Source of the DNA: Pontibacillus chungwhensis
GTDB lineage: Bacteria; Bacillota; Bacilli; Bacillales; BH030062
Assembly: GCF_030166655.1 (NCBI RefSeq)
Contig: NZ_CP126446.1
Span: 682,001 to 746,000, forward strand
DNA length: 64,000 nt
Reading direction: 5' to 3'
Shown here: positions 57,173 through 60,615 of the stretch, piece by piece
Position numbering within the stretch: position 1 is the first letter of the stretch
How the letters are laid out: the number at the start of each line of letters is the position of its first letter
The notes under the pieces: generated by a model
Told to the model about the DNA's origin: nothing
Seen by the model: the letters and a program-made list of their open reading frames with translations, nothing else
The model's database searches: none
Position numbers and translations under genes: made by a program

Positions 57173-57363
57173 TTCGATCCTCCTTTTCGTTGGTCGTTTT
57201 TTGTTAGTATGGTGAGAATTCCATTTTTTATAAGGAGCATCCAAAAAAGATTCTAGGAGGAAATGAGTCAAGAACGGTTTTTATACTTTAAATACATAGT
57301 CACGTTCATTTGTTCAGATACTACTAGAACAATTTGAATCCAGAAGAAAAGGGCGAGATTGAG

Positions 57364-58392
57364 ATGAGCCTGCAATTAATAGAAGCATATATTCCTGATA
57401 AACATTTTGAATCGGTCAATGAGAAGTTACAGGAACAGCCGCATACCTCCTATTGGGTTTCGAGTGAATCCGAAGAAAGAATGTTAGTAAGGATCCTTGT
57501 AGGCTCTGACCAGGTCGAAGAGATCCTGAACTATTTAGAGAGTGTCTCAAACGTTGTAGACGGATTTGAAACCATGTTAATTCCGGTGCGTACGTATTTA
57601 TCACGGGAAACGTTAAATAGTGAGAGTGAAGAAGAAACAAACCAAGAAGATGCAGATGAGGAAGAAAAGCAAATTCTCCTTCGGGCAAGTCGTCAGGAAC
57701 TAATTTCATTTGTGGAGAGTAACAGCGTAACGACATTAAATTACTCTCTTATGATCTTTTTTTCAGCTGTCGTGGGGTCAATGGGCTTTATTAAAGATAG
57801 CGATGCAGTTGTGATTGGCTCGATGGTGATTGCTCCTTTGATTGGTCCGGTTATTGCCACGGCTTTTGCTGCGATTCTTGGAGATTATCGGTTGCTTGGA
57901 AAGGCTGCTCTGACTTCCTTTATCGGTGTGGCTATTGTGGTCGTTATGGCTATTTTGTTTAATTTTATCTTTCATATGAGTGGGGAATCTTCTCAATATA
58001 CATCGAGGACAGGTGTCACGGGTTCTGACTTTTTCCTGGCTCTCGCCGCCGGGGGGGCAGGAGCGATTGCTACGCTGAATCGAAAGGCCGGAAACTTGGT
58101 AGGTGTTATGGTAGCTGTAGCTTTGCTGCCACCAAACGTTGCACTTGGGATGTCGATTGGGAAAGGGTTATGGGATGAAGCGTACGGATCGTTTCTCCTT
58201 GTCACGGTCAATATTATGTGCATTCTGTTATCTGCGGTCATTGTTTTCTCCCTTGCAGGTATTCGGCCTGTCAGGTGGAAGGAAGTACAACGGGCCAATG
58301 TGTCGAGGTCCTTGTCTATTGTATTTGTATTAATCATTGTAGCTTCTTTAGTAGGGGTTATCTTTCTGGGTGAGGGAATTTCAATGCAATAA
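57364..58392 (+). CDS. DUF389 membrane protein
   Basis: 342 residues from ATG 57364 (AAAAGGG ahead). N-terminal ~90 residues form a ferredoxin-like soluble domain (LQLIEAYIPDKHFESVNEKL), then an acidic linker, then the DUF389 membrane core (TIGR00341) with about six helices: SNSVTTLNYSLMIFFSAVVG, DAVVIGSMVIAPLIGPVIAT, and NRKAGNLVGVMVAVALLPPN. The family occurs in many bacteria; function is not known, and transport has been suggested. It is divergent from germinant operon 2. Confidence 0.85.
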   Translation: MSLQLIEAYIPDKHFESVNEKLQEQPHTSYWVSSESEERMLVRILVGSDQVEEILNYLESVSNVVDGFETMLIPVRTYLSRETLNSESEEETNQEDADEEEKQILLRASRQELISFVESNSVTTLNYSLMIFFSAVVGSMGFIKDSDAVVIGSMVIAPLIGPVIATAFAAILGDYRLLGKAALTSFIGVAIVVVMAILFNFIFHMSGESSQYTSRTGVTGSDFFLALAAGGAGAIATLNRKAGNLVGVMVAVALLPPNVALGMSIGKGLWDEAYGSFLLVTVNIMCILLSAVIVFSLAGIRPVRWKEVQRANVSRSLSIVFVLIIVASLVGVIFLGEGISMQ

Positions 58393-58451: not shown

Positions 58452-58480
58452 TTGACTTAAGATTTTGAAAATTATATACT
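58452..58480 (+). promoter_or_regulatory. Promoter of the ABC exporter leader
   Basis: TTGACT (58452-58457) and TATACT (58475-58480) with a 17-base spacer: a near-ideal sigma-A promoter. Transcription would start near 58487, about 380 bases before the first exporter gene. Confidence 0.75.
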
Positions 58481-58501
58481 TTAATCACTATTTATGAAAG
58501 G

Positions 58502-58666
58502 GAGGTCACATCAAAATGAACAAGCGTAGAATTGTAATTATGATTGCCATGAATATGAATAATTACGTGACCTCATCCTTCTCGTAAAAAGGTTCCAGTT
58601 GTCTGGTATCCTTTTGTTCATTTTGAGACGTTGAGGAGGTTACGACTAGATCGTAGCCTCTTTTTT
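58502..58666 (+). promoter_or_regulatory. Attenuator: antiterminator and terminator 1
   Basis: Three competing pairings can be drawn. (a) GAGGTCAC 58502-58509 with GTGACCTC 58567-58574 hides the leader ribosome site. (b) CGTGACCTC 58566-58574 with GAGGTTACG 58636-58644 (nine pairs, one G-U) is an antiterminator. (c) GAGGTTACGA 58636-58645 with TCGTAGCCTC 58651-58660, followed by six T, is a terminator. (b) and (c) exclude each other. A small hairpin AAAAGG-CCAG/CTGG-CCTTTT lies between at 58587-58615. A ribosome stalled early in the leader would leave (b) free to form; one reaching the stop would cover it and allow (c). Confidence 0.65.
58516..58587 (+). CDS. 23-residue leader peptide of the attenuator
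   Basis: ATG 58516 follows AAAGGGAGG (58497-58505), ending at TAA 58585-58587. The peptide begins MNKRRIVIMIAMNMNNYV; it is Met/Ile/Asn rich with a basic start and ends in TSSFS. GAGGTCAC (58502-58509), which includes the ribosome site, can pair with GTGACCTC (58567-58574) inside the reading frame. In B. subtilis the equivalent exporter genes bmrCD follow the leader gene bmrB, whose translation controls transcription. This ORF occupies the same place; similarity to BmrB was not testable. Confidence 0.65.
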   Translation: MNKRRIVIMIAMNMNNYVTSSFS

Positions 58667-58675
58667 GTGCCTTTA

Positions 58676-58713
58676 GCACATACGTTAAGAGTCTAACGTA
58701 TGTGCTTTTTTTT
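58676..58713 (+). terminator. Terminator 2 in the exporter leader
   Basis: GCACATACGTTA (58676-58687) and TAACGTATGTGC (58694-58705), a perfect 12-bp stem with a six-base loop and eight T. It stands upstream of the exporter genes, so transcription must pass it as well. TGTGC at 58666-58670 can pair with GCACA 58676-58680 and would compete with it. Confidence 0.85.
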
Positions 58714-58780
58714 GTCTTTTTTGAGGTTTGGCAGATTGTCTGCTTTATCTATATAAATCAAGTTTTGGGAGGCGTTAATT

Positions 58781-58834
58781 ATGTTGAGTTGTATTCGTAT
58801 GTATGGATCAAAGCAAGAGATGGAAGGCGGCTAA
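58781..58834 (+). CDS. Second short leader ORF (17 residues)
   Basis: TGGGAGG lies 7-8 bases before ATG 58781; the frame ends TAA 58832-58834. The peptide starts MLSCIRMYGSKQEM. It is between terminator 2 and the first exporter gene (start 58864). It may be a second control peptide or only a chance frame; the good ribosome site favours translation. Confidence 0.35.
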   Translation: MLSCIRMYGSKQEMEGG

Positions 58835-58863
58835 CAAACGAATAATGGAAAGTTGGTGACAGG

Positions 58864-60615
58864 ATGTTTTCGGTTCTAGGAAAATTAAATTGGTTTTTTA
58901 AAGAGTATTGGATCAGGTACTCAATCGCTATTATTTTATTAGTCTTTGTGAGTGCTATTGATATTTTGCCACCGAAGTTAATTGGGGCTGCTATTGATGG
59001 GATTCAATTTGAAACGTTGACGAGAGAGAGGCTAACAGAGCTTCTGTTCTGGTATTTGATGATTCTTATCGTCAGTTACGTGGTTTCGTATTATTGGGGA
59101 TATTTATTGTTTGGAGGGGCAATGATTTTAGAGAGGAAGAAACGTTCTAACCTAATGCAACACTTCCTTGCCATGACTCCAACGTTTTTTGGGAAATATC
59201 GAACGGGCGATTTGATGGCTCGTTCTACAAATGATTTAAAAGCCATTTCTATGACAGCTGGGTTTGGAATATTAACACTCGTGGATTCGACCTTTTTTAT
59301 GGTCATGATTGTAGGAGTCATGATCGTTACGATTAGCTGGAAGCTGACACTGGCGGCTTTAATTCCACTGCCGATTATGGCTTTAATGATGAAACGGTAT
59401 GGAAAGACCATTCATGAACGATTTACAAAAGCGCAAGATGCGTTTGGAGACATGAATGACAGCGTTCTGGAGTCTGTAAGAGGGGTGCGAGTCATTCGTG
59501 CTTTTGTTCAAGAGAAAGAGGACCAGGACCGATTTCATAACATGACAAATGATGTATATGAGAAAAACGTGGAGGTCGCCAAGATTGACGCCATGTTTGA
59601 GCCTACCATTAAAATTCTCGTCGGTCTTTCTTATACGATTGGACTCGGATATGGAGCTCACCTTGTATTCGTCAATGCCATTACACTAGGGCAGCTTGTT
59701 TCCTTTAACGTCTATCTTGGTATGTTAATCTGGCCGATGTTTGCTGTAGGAGAATTGATTAATGTGATGCAACGAGGCAATGCCTCCCTTGATCGTGTAA
59801 ACGACACGTTAGGGTATGAGGTAGACGTAAAAGACCCAGAGGACCCGAAGCATGTCCCTTTGCCAAGTGTGGTCAGCTTCGATCATGTAACGTTTCGTTA
59901 TCCAGATACGAACCGGGATCAGTTACAGGATATTAACCTCACCGTGAAGCGGGGTTCTACCATTGGTGTCGTTGGGAAAACGGGTGCTGGGAAGACGACG
60001 CTCTTCCGGCAGATGTTACGGGACTACTCTGGTATGAAGGGGAGTTTAACGATAGCAGGTACCTCACTCGAAGAAATCGCTCTTGATACGTCAAGAGGGT
60101 GGATTGGATATGTGCCTCAGGATCAAATTCTCTTCTCTAAAACGGTTCGCGAGAATATCCAATTTGGTCGTGAGGATGCGAGTGATGAAGAGATTGAGCG
60201 TATTCTCGAGTTGGCCTATTTAAAGAAAGATATTGATAACCTTCCTAAAGGGCTCGATACAAAAGTCGGAGAGAGCGGAGTGACGTTATCCGGTGGACAA
60301 AAACAGCGTGTTTCCTTAGCGAGAGCGCTTATTATGGATCCTGAGATTCTTCTCTTAGATGATTCGATGTCAGCAGTTGATGGGAAGACAGAAGCGAATA
60401 TTATCAGGCATCTAAAAGAAGAACGAAAAGACAAAACGACCTTTATAGCAGCTCACCGCCTTTCAGGTGTTCAGCACGCTGATGAGATTATCGTCCTTGA
60501 AGATGGAAAGATCGTAGAGCGTGGCACACATGAAGACTTGATGGAGCAAGATGGATGGTATAAGGATCAGTTTACGAAACAACAAATGGATCAAGAGGAG
60601 GTGGATGACCAGTGA
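58864..60615 (+). CDS. bmrC: Heterodimeric ABC multidrug exporter, subunit 1 (BmrC/YheI-like)
   Basis: 583 residues, close to BmrC (585). Six-helix transmembrane domain (residues ~1-310) then ATPase: Walker A GVVGKTGAGKTTLFRQM, Q-loop YVPQDQILFSKT, signature LSGGQKQRVSLARAL, and Walker B ILLLDDSMSAVDGKTEA, where the catalytic Glu is replaced by Asp in LLLDDS. This is the usual non-catalytic site of BmrC-type subunits. Partner of the next gene, with an ATPase overlap of four bases. Transcription is preceded by the attenuator leader. Confidence 0.85.
   Translation: MFSVLGKLNWFFKEYWIRYSIAIILLVFVSAIDILPPKLIGAAIDGIQFETLTRERLTELLFWYLMILIVSYVVSYYWGYLLFGGAMILERKKRSNLMQHFLAMTPTFFGKYRTGDLMARSTNDLKAISMTAGFGILTLVDSTFFMVMIVGVMIVTISWKLTLAALIPLPIMALMMKRYGKTIHERFTKAQDAFGDMNDSVLESVRGVRVIRAFVQEKEDQDRFHNMTNDVYEKNVEVAKIDAMFEPTIKILVGLSYTIGLGYGAHLVFVNAITLGQLVSFNVYLGMLIWPMFAVGELINVMQRGNASLDRVNDTLGYEVDVKDPEDPKHVPLPSVVSFDHVTFRYPDTNRDQLQDINLTVKRGSTIGVVGKTGAGKTTLFRQMLRDYSGMKGSLTIAGTSLEEIALDTSRGWIGYVPQDQILFSKTVRENIQFGREDASDEEIERILELAYLKKDIDNLPKGLDTKVGESGVTLSGGQKQRVSLARALIMDPEILLLDDSMSAVDGKTEANIIRHLKEERKDKTTFIAAHRLSGVQHADEIIVLEDGKIVERGTHEDLMEQDGWYKDQFTKQQMDQEEVDDQ

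Follow-up and report, generated by a model that had tools for sequence, protein, structure and literature searches.

A probable ribosome-mediated attenuator with tandem terminators and a second short open reading frame upstream of bmrCD orthologues

The leader that precedes a pair of ABC exporter genes in the window (the whole 64,000-nucleotide stretch of DNA that was analysed) probably controls transcription by ribosome-mediated attenuation, as described for the Bacillus subtilis bmrB-bmrCD operon; in the window, transcripts that pass a second terminator (T2) would carry a second short ORF (ORF2). Comparison of related loci suggests that one type of switch is common to the bacterial order that includes B. 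subtilis. All of the elements that a sequence-only reading had named (promoter, 23-codon ORF, SD stem, antiterminator, two terminators and second ORF) were recovered where that reading had placed them, and direct reading of the letters confirmed that the antiterminator arm at 58566–58574 lies inside the leader frame. That reading had not named the 13-nt complement of the ORF1 start region, the small hairpin at 58730–58744 or the promoter-like pair behind T2. The features are listed below.

58452–58480, forward strand: leader promoter TTGACT-17-TATACT, with −35 TTGACT at 58452–58457, −10 TATACT at 58475–58480 and a 17-nt spacer
58500–58505, forward strand: SD of ORF1, GGGAGG, by direct reading
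58502–58509, forward strand: arm A, GAGGTCAC, which pairs with arm B at 58567–58574 in the SD-hiding stem
58516–58587, forward strand: ORF1, 23 codons, MNKRRIVIMIAMNMNNYVTSSFS, with ATG at 58516, TAA at 58585–58587 and the SD upstream
58541–58553, forward strand: motif TGATTGCCATGAA in ORF1, 13 nt, nearly invariant in seven Pontibacillus genomes
58566–58574, forward strand: arm B, CGTGACCTC, within the ORF1 frame, with arm A or arm C as partner
58614–58626, forward strand: 13 nt perfectly complementary to 58511–58523 around the ORF1 start codon, clade-specific
58634–58662, to 58666 with the U-tract, forward strand: terminator T1, which contains arm C
58636–58644, forward strand: arm C, GAGGTTACG, nine pairs with arm B, one of them G-U
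58675–58706, to 58713 with the U-tract, forward strand: terminator T2, 13 perfect pairs
58728–58757, forward strand: promoter-like pair TTGGCA-18-TATAAA, candidate basal promoter, z 4.4 versus shuffles
58730–58744: small hairpin overlapping this promoter-like pair
58781–58834, forward strand: ORF2, 17 codons, MLSCIRMYGSKQEMEGG, with SD GGGAGG at 58767–58772 and an acidic-small-Gly-stop tail
58864–60615, forward strand: bmrC orthologue, ABC exporter half, best PDB match B. subtilis YheI/BmrC, PF00664 and PF00005
60612–62645, forward strand: bmrD orthologue, ABC exporter half, its start overlapping the end of bmrC

Judged by sequence, the downstream genes are orthologues of bmrC and bmrD. The BmrC of the window is 59% identical to the B. 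subtilis protein over its full length, and 93% identical to the BmrC proteins of Pontibacillus salipaludis and P. chungwhensis. The gene directly upstream of the leader (57334–58392) encodes a hydrophobic membrane protein of the TIGR00341 family. Folding of the leader in silico, one of the checks that the sequence-only reading had called for, gave the 234-nt leader an energy with a z of −5.7 versus dinucleotide shuffles, and none of 200 shuffles was as low. The window had no match to the Rfam 15 covariance models at the gathering score, the leader had none up to E=1, and nine related loci had no Rfam match either; searches of Rfam, Pfam and NCBIfam with the leader and its peptides likewise gave no match.

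The arrangement of the arms suggests how the switch would work. When no ribosome is on the leader, arm A, which carries the SD, would pair with arm B, so that T1 forms and transcription stops. During normal translation, a ribosome at the ORF1 stop codon would cover arm B and T1 would form again. A ribosome-targeting antibiotic would slow or stall the ribosome no further than about codon 12, leaving arm B free, and the resulting B:C pairing would block T1. As a ribosome covers some 16 nt beyond its P site, arm B would be free with the P site at codon 12 or earlier. Those transcripts that also pass T2 would carry ORF2, where slow peptide release at its end would make the ribosome linger about 30 nt 5' of bmrC and so couple or gate bmrC translation. 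Three drugs, lincomycin, erythromycin and chloramphenicol, switch on bmrCD in B. subtilis; they act through the terminator of the leader, and the response depends on translation of the leader (Reilman et al., 2014; PMC4191407). In B. cereus, too, a bmrC homologue is drug-inducible, in this case by tetracycline, chloramphenicol and erythromycin (PMC5417439). The leader of the window would presumably sense drugs in this organism as well.

We examined conservation at the level of the genus and of the order. The leader was found in seven of eight Pontibacillus genomes, and their alignment retains the promoter, SD, arm B, T1, T2 and ORF2. In all seven, the ATG of TGATTGCCATGAA sits 18 nt 5' of the GTGAC of arm B. 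Two of these genomes have a shifted ORF1 frame, so the sequence of the leader peptide is not conserved there. Pairing between 58511–58523 and 58614–58626 also occurs in the two closest species, P. salipaludis and P. chungwhensis, and is absent from the rest of the genus in the alignment. A 20-nt stretch over the promoter spacer and −10 element (58458–58477), AAGATTTTGAAAATTATATA, is invariant in the seven genomes and may be a regulator site. Similar stretches occur in other genera too. The corresponding B. subtilis promoter is under AbrB control (PMC4191407).

The order-wide comparison covered the upstream regions of 60 bmrC orthologues, plus 20 more from Bacillus. A recurring layout emerged, in the order SD/arm A, ORF1, arm B, T1, T2, ORF2 and bmrC, with an SD-like sequence repeated in the 5' arm of T1. 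Nearly all orthologous loci have an ORF with an SD at the place of ORF1, mostly of 20–35 codons, and arm B lies at ORF1 codons 13–20 in most of them. The sequences of the arms differ between genera while the pairing is retained through compensatory changes across the GTDB order, which supports the proposal of the sequence-only reading that a bmrB-type, ribosome-controlled attenuator precedes a bmrCD orthologue. That reading had also named unconserved pairing arms in relatives among the observations that would speak against such a switch; instead, both the A:B and the B:C pairing proved to be locus-specific in a permutation test on 26 loci (p = 2e-4 each, values that are rough because related loci share ancestry; where a locus offered several ORF1 candidates, they were ranked by A:B pairing and the top one was taken, which slightly favours A:B, and B:C played no part in the choice). 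The B:C pairing was also stronger than in shuffled controls (mean z −2.4), with 23 of 30 loci below −1.5. Since the A:B, B:C and C:D structures share strands, they are mutually exclusive and correspond to an anti-antiterminator, an antiterminator and a terminator. A promoter signal before ORF1 is conserved across the order as well (mean z 2.5 versus shuffles). Ribosome-mediated attenuation of the type demonstrated for B. subtilis bmrCD is thus well supported, because the arms are conserved with compensatory changes and pair in a locus-specific manner.

Three other accounts of the leader were weighed against these data. T1 and T2 might mainly insulate the operon, with bmrCD driven by its own promoter at 58728–58757 and the attenuator playing a minor role. 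The TTGGCA-18-TATAAA pair indeed lies just past T2 and stands out from shuffled sequence, and a similar pair is present in one other genome, but an order-wide signal for a promoter behind T2 is absent (mean z 0.16), whereas the one before ORF1 is conserved; moreover, an idle leader would not need the covariation that links arms A, B and C. We consider this account unlikely. It is also unlikely that the two terminators open in a two-step relay, in which B:C pairing frees the 3' strand of T1 and this strand, together with the linker, pairs with the 5' arm of T2. The energy would allow such pairing in the window (−10.8 kcal/mol, z −2.2), and 10 of 30 loci have a z below −1.5, but the mean z is only −0.76 and covariation is lacking, as the T2 of a locus was no better a partner than the T2 of other loci (p=0.56). 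The most serious of the three concerns what ORF1 does. The ORF might simply keep ribosomes on the leader, so that the general rate of translation, rather than a stall motif or a given drug, sets the use of T1. ORF1 peptides vary widely between genera, the frame shifts in the two Pontibacillus genomes point the same way, and codon optimisation in B. subtilis cut read-through while the drug response was kept (PMC4191407). Against this, the recurrence of N-F-I at codons 11–13 in several genera and the invariant ATG-to-arm spacing in Pontibacillus suggest a preferred place of stalling; we therefore regard a purely rate-dependent ORF1 as a substantial possibility, though not the favoured one. The N-F-I sequence stands just before arm B in ten loci, with Ile mostly encoded by ATA, and may be a shared stall motif. 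Attenuation by a ribosome on ORF1 remains the best explanation of the leader as a whole because of the covarying arms, the position of arm B in the leader frame, the B. subtilis data and the induction in B. cereus.

The sequence-only reading had described the arrangement as apparently more elaborate than that of B. subtilis. This holds for the terminators, of which the window has two, T1 with a U-tract, and B. subtilis bmrB-bmrCD one; it does not hold for the SD stem, the 23-codon leader or ORF2, all of which B. subtilis also has. At least two terminators were found in 39 of the 58 loci with a scored leader, and tandem terminators are thus a variation within an orthologous bmrB-type system and not a different system. 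T2 is strong and conserved, and it fits the proposed switch poorly, as arm B pairs with T1 only and makes no contact with T2. Equilibrium folding of states that represent successive ribosome positions gave a formed T2 in nearly all of them, but the method cannot decide the use of T1 and T2 because B. subtilis, for which regulation is proven, is also predicted to be unregulated. A GCATACG/CGTATGC-like core recurs in the T2 hairpin across genera, though pairing alone should matter for a terminator. Many loci also have a small hairpin between T2 and ORF2, and the A/T-rich sequence after it often reads TATATAAAT.

ORF2 is mostly 17–20 codons long with its own SD, and in most loci it ends about 31 nt 5' of bmrC (range 17–48). 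Its C-terminus reads [D/E][G/S/D]G-stop, and the N-terminal parts are highly variable. With one fixed procedure, the motif was detected at 65 of 82 bmrC loci and at none of 252 control genes from the genome that contains the window; about one fifth of the bmrC loci have no recognisable ORF2. Among further loci that were picked before inspection, 12 of 20 carried the motif and three more had near variants, compared with 1 of 2000 shuffles. The search for other ORF2-like leaders extended over the window and over 400 kb of genomic sequence. Distant bmrC homologues, from other orders or paralogous, mostly do not have the motif. In two loci (L029 and L030), an inserted gene for a small membrane protein lies between T2 and bmrC, with an EGG-stop ORF of its own in front; this arrangement suggests that the element serves individual genes.

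The tail of ORF2 is encoded with all four Gly codons, both codons for each of the two acidic residues and all three stop codons, and because of this synonymous variation the peptide appears to be the target of selection. The tail might alternatively be conserved for its RNA, either as a purine-rich, SD-like GAAGGCGG that holds or re-loads the terminating 30S subunit or through pairing with the bmrC start. The common tail codons GAA-GGC-GGC do resemble an SD, and a penultimate Ser is encoded only by AGC or AGT; however, the Asp-Gly, Asp-Asp-Gly and Ser-Gly versions of the tail break the SD-like run, the codon variety just described is not what such a run would predict, and pairing of the ORF2 3' end with the bmrC start, a candidate we rejected, was no better for a locus's own partner than for swapped ones. 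Conservation for RNA is, on this evidence, rather unlikely. As a peptide-level element, ORF2 appears to combine what is expected of an arrest-peptide uORF, namely conserved C-terminal residues, selection on the peptide and a position directly upstream of a regulated gene. Release is reported to be inefficient for peptides with a C-terminal Gly (PMC7246954, citing Pierson et al., 2016), and we therefore propose a slow-termination checkpoint, in which the acidic-small-Gly-stop end of ORF2 would make release of the peptide slow. We found no description of such an ORF in the searched papers and family libraries, which is weak evidence given that many subscription papers fell outside the search.

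The comparison also bears on the leader of B. subtilis, which we took from a genome whose BmrC matches the PDB sequence at 100%. This leader has an SD, GGAGG, followed by an ATG that opens a frame of 23 codons, MPRNLRVYQTVSYWRGKPFVLFS, and the SD is hidden by pairing of GGTTTGC with GCAAACC. Its ORF2 is GTG-initiated, MKTNTEARAVRAKLDEKSCKEKIEGG; the accessible sections of PMC4191407 make no mention of it. The published bmrB frame has 53 codons and a GTG start (PMC4191407). It differs from the conserved, SD-preceded ORF1, and its start has no SD. Among 11 B. subtilis-group genomes, every one has an open ORF1 (23–32 codons, with an SD, some 300 nt 5' of bmrC), while the annotated bmrB frame lacks a start codon in four of them and is truncated in six. 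Codon-position bias in Bacillus (9/9/8 and 7/7/7) was uninformative, and frame integrity and the SD were therefore used to choose between ORF1 and the bmrB frame. The published bmrB start mutant also carried changes in alternative starts and in candidate ribosome-binding sites within the 5' UTR, so that it fits either frame. Regulation was abolished by two point mutations, which, when positions are numbered from the bmrB start, fall in the 3' arm of the T2-like terminator. A plasmid-borne BmrB-GFP fusion in the annotated frame fluoresced, which argues against ORF1, and a chromosomal fusion did not (these mutants and fusions are from PMC4191407). Taken at the level of sequence, the comparison suggests, rather than proves, that ORF1 is the true leader of B. 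subtilis.

In 2014, bmrCD was reported as the first multidrug ABC transporter with ribosome-mediated attenuation, and bmrB-bmrCD is the system most like the window in its parts, with an orthologous exporter, an SD-hidden leader ORF, a terminator and an ORF2 before bmrC (Reilman et al., 2014; PMC4191407). The vmlR leader of B. subtilis (Takada et al., 2022; PMC9226507, accessible sections) is similar in having a uORF, an anti-antiterminator, an antiterminator, a terminator and induction by ribosome-targeting drugs. It differs from the window in its three-codon uORF within SL-1, in a hairpin that sequesters the SD of the main gene and in its product, an ABCF protein and not an exporter; one terminator and no second uORF are described in those sections. 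The streptococcal msrD leader peptide (PMC10314930, abstract) is likewise short and controls a resistance gene through macrolide-dependent action on the ribosome, but peptide and gene differ from those of the window, whose ORF2 conserves a C-terminal acidic-small-Gly-stop. By its title and abstract, Streptococcus pneumoniae patAB (PMC4319486) resembles the window in having a transcription attenuator before a heterodimeric ABC multidrug exporter.

Three findings are new within the searched literature and libraries: the order-wide layout with two uORFs, the tail of ORF2, and the evidence for conservation of a frame other than the annotated bmrB. We tentatively suggest that ORF2 could belong to an undescribed class of termination-arrest uORFs of about 18 codons with an acidic-small-Gly-stop end, which would place a translational checkpoint behind the transcriptional one and let ribosome state gate bmrCD twice across the order, and that the published BmrB frame could be wrong and ORF1 real; taken together, these form a possible rather than a probable proposal. 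The comparison indicates that the bmrCD switch is shared across the order, and a conserved leader frame in B. subtilis would change how existing mutants should be read. That the tail of ORF2 is conserved while the rest of the peptide drifts suggests a nascent-peptide effect on termination beside a drug-exporter gene.
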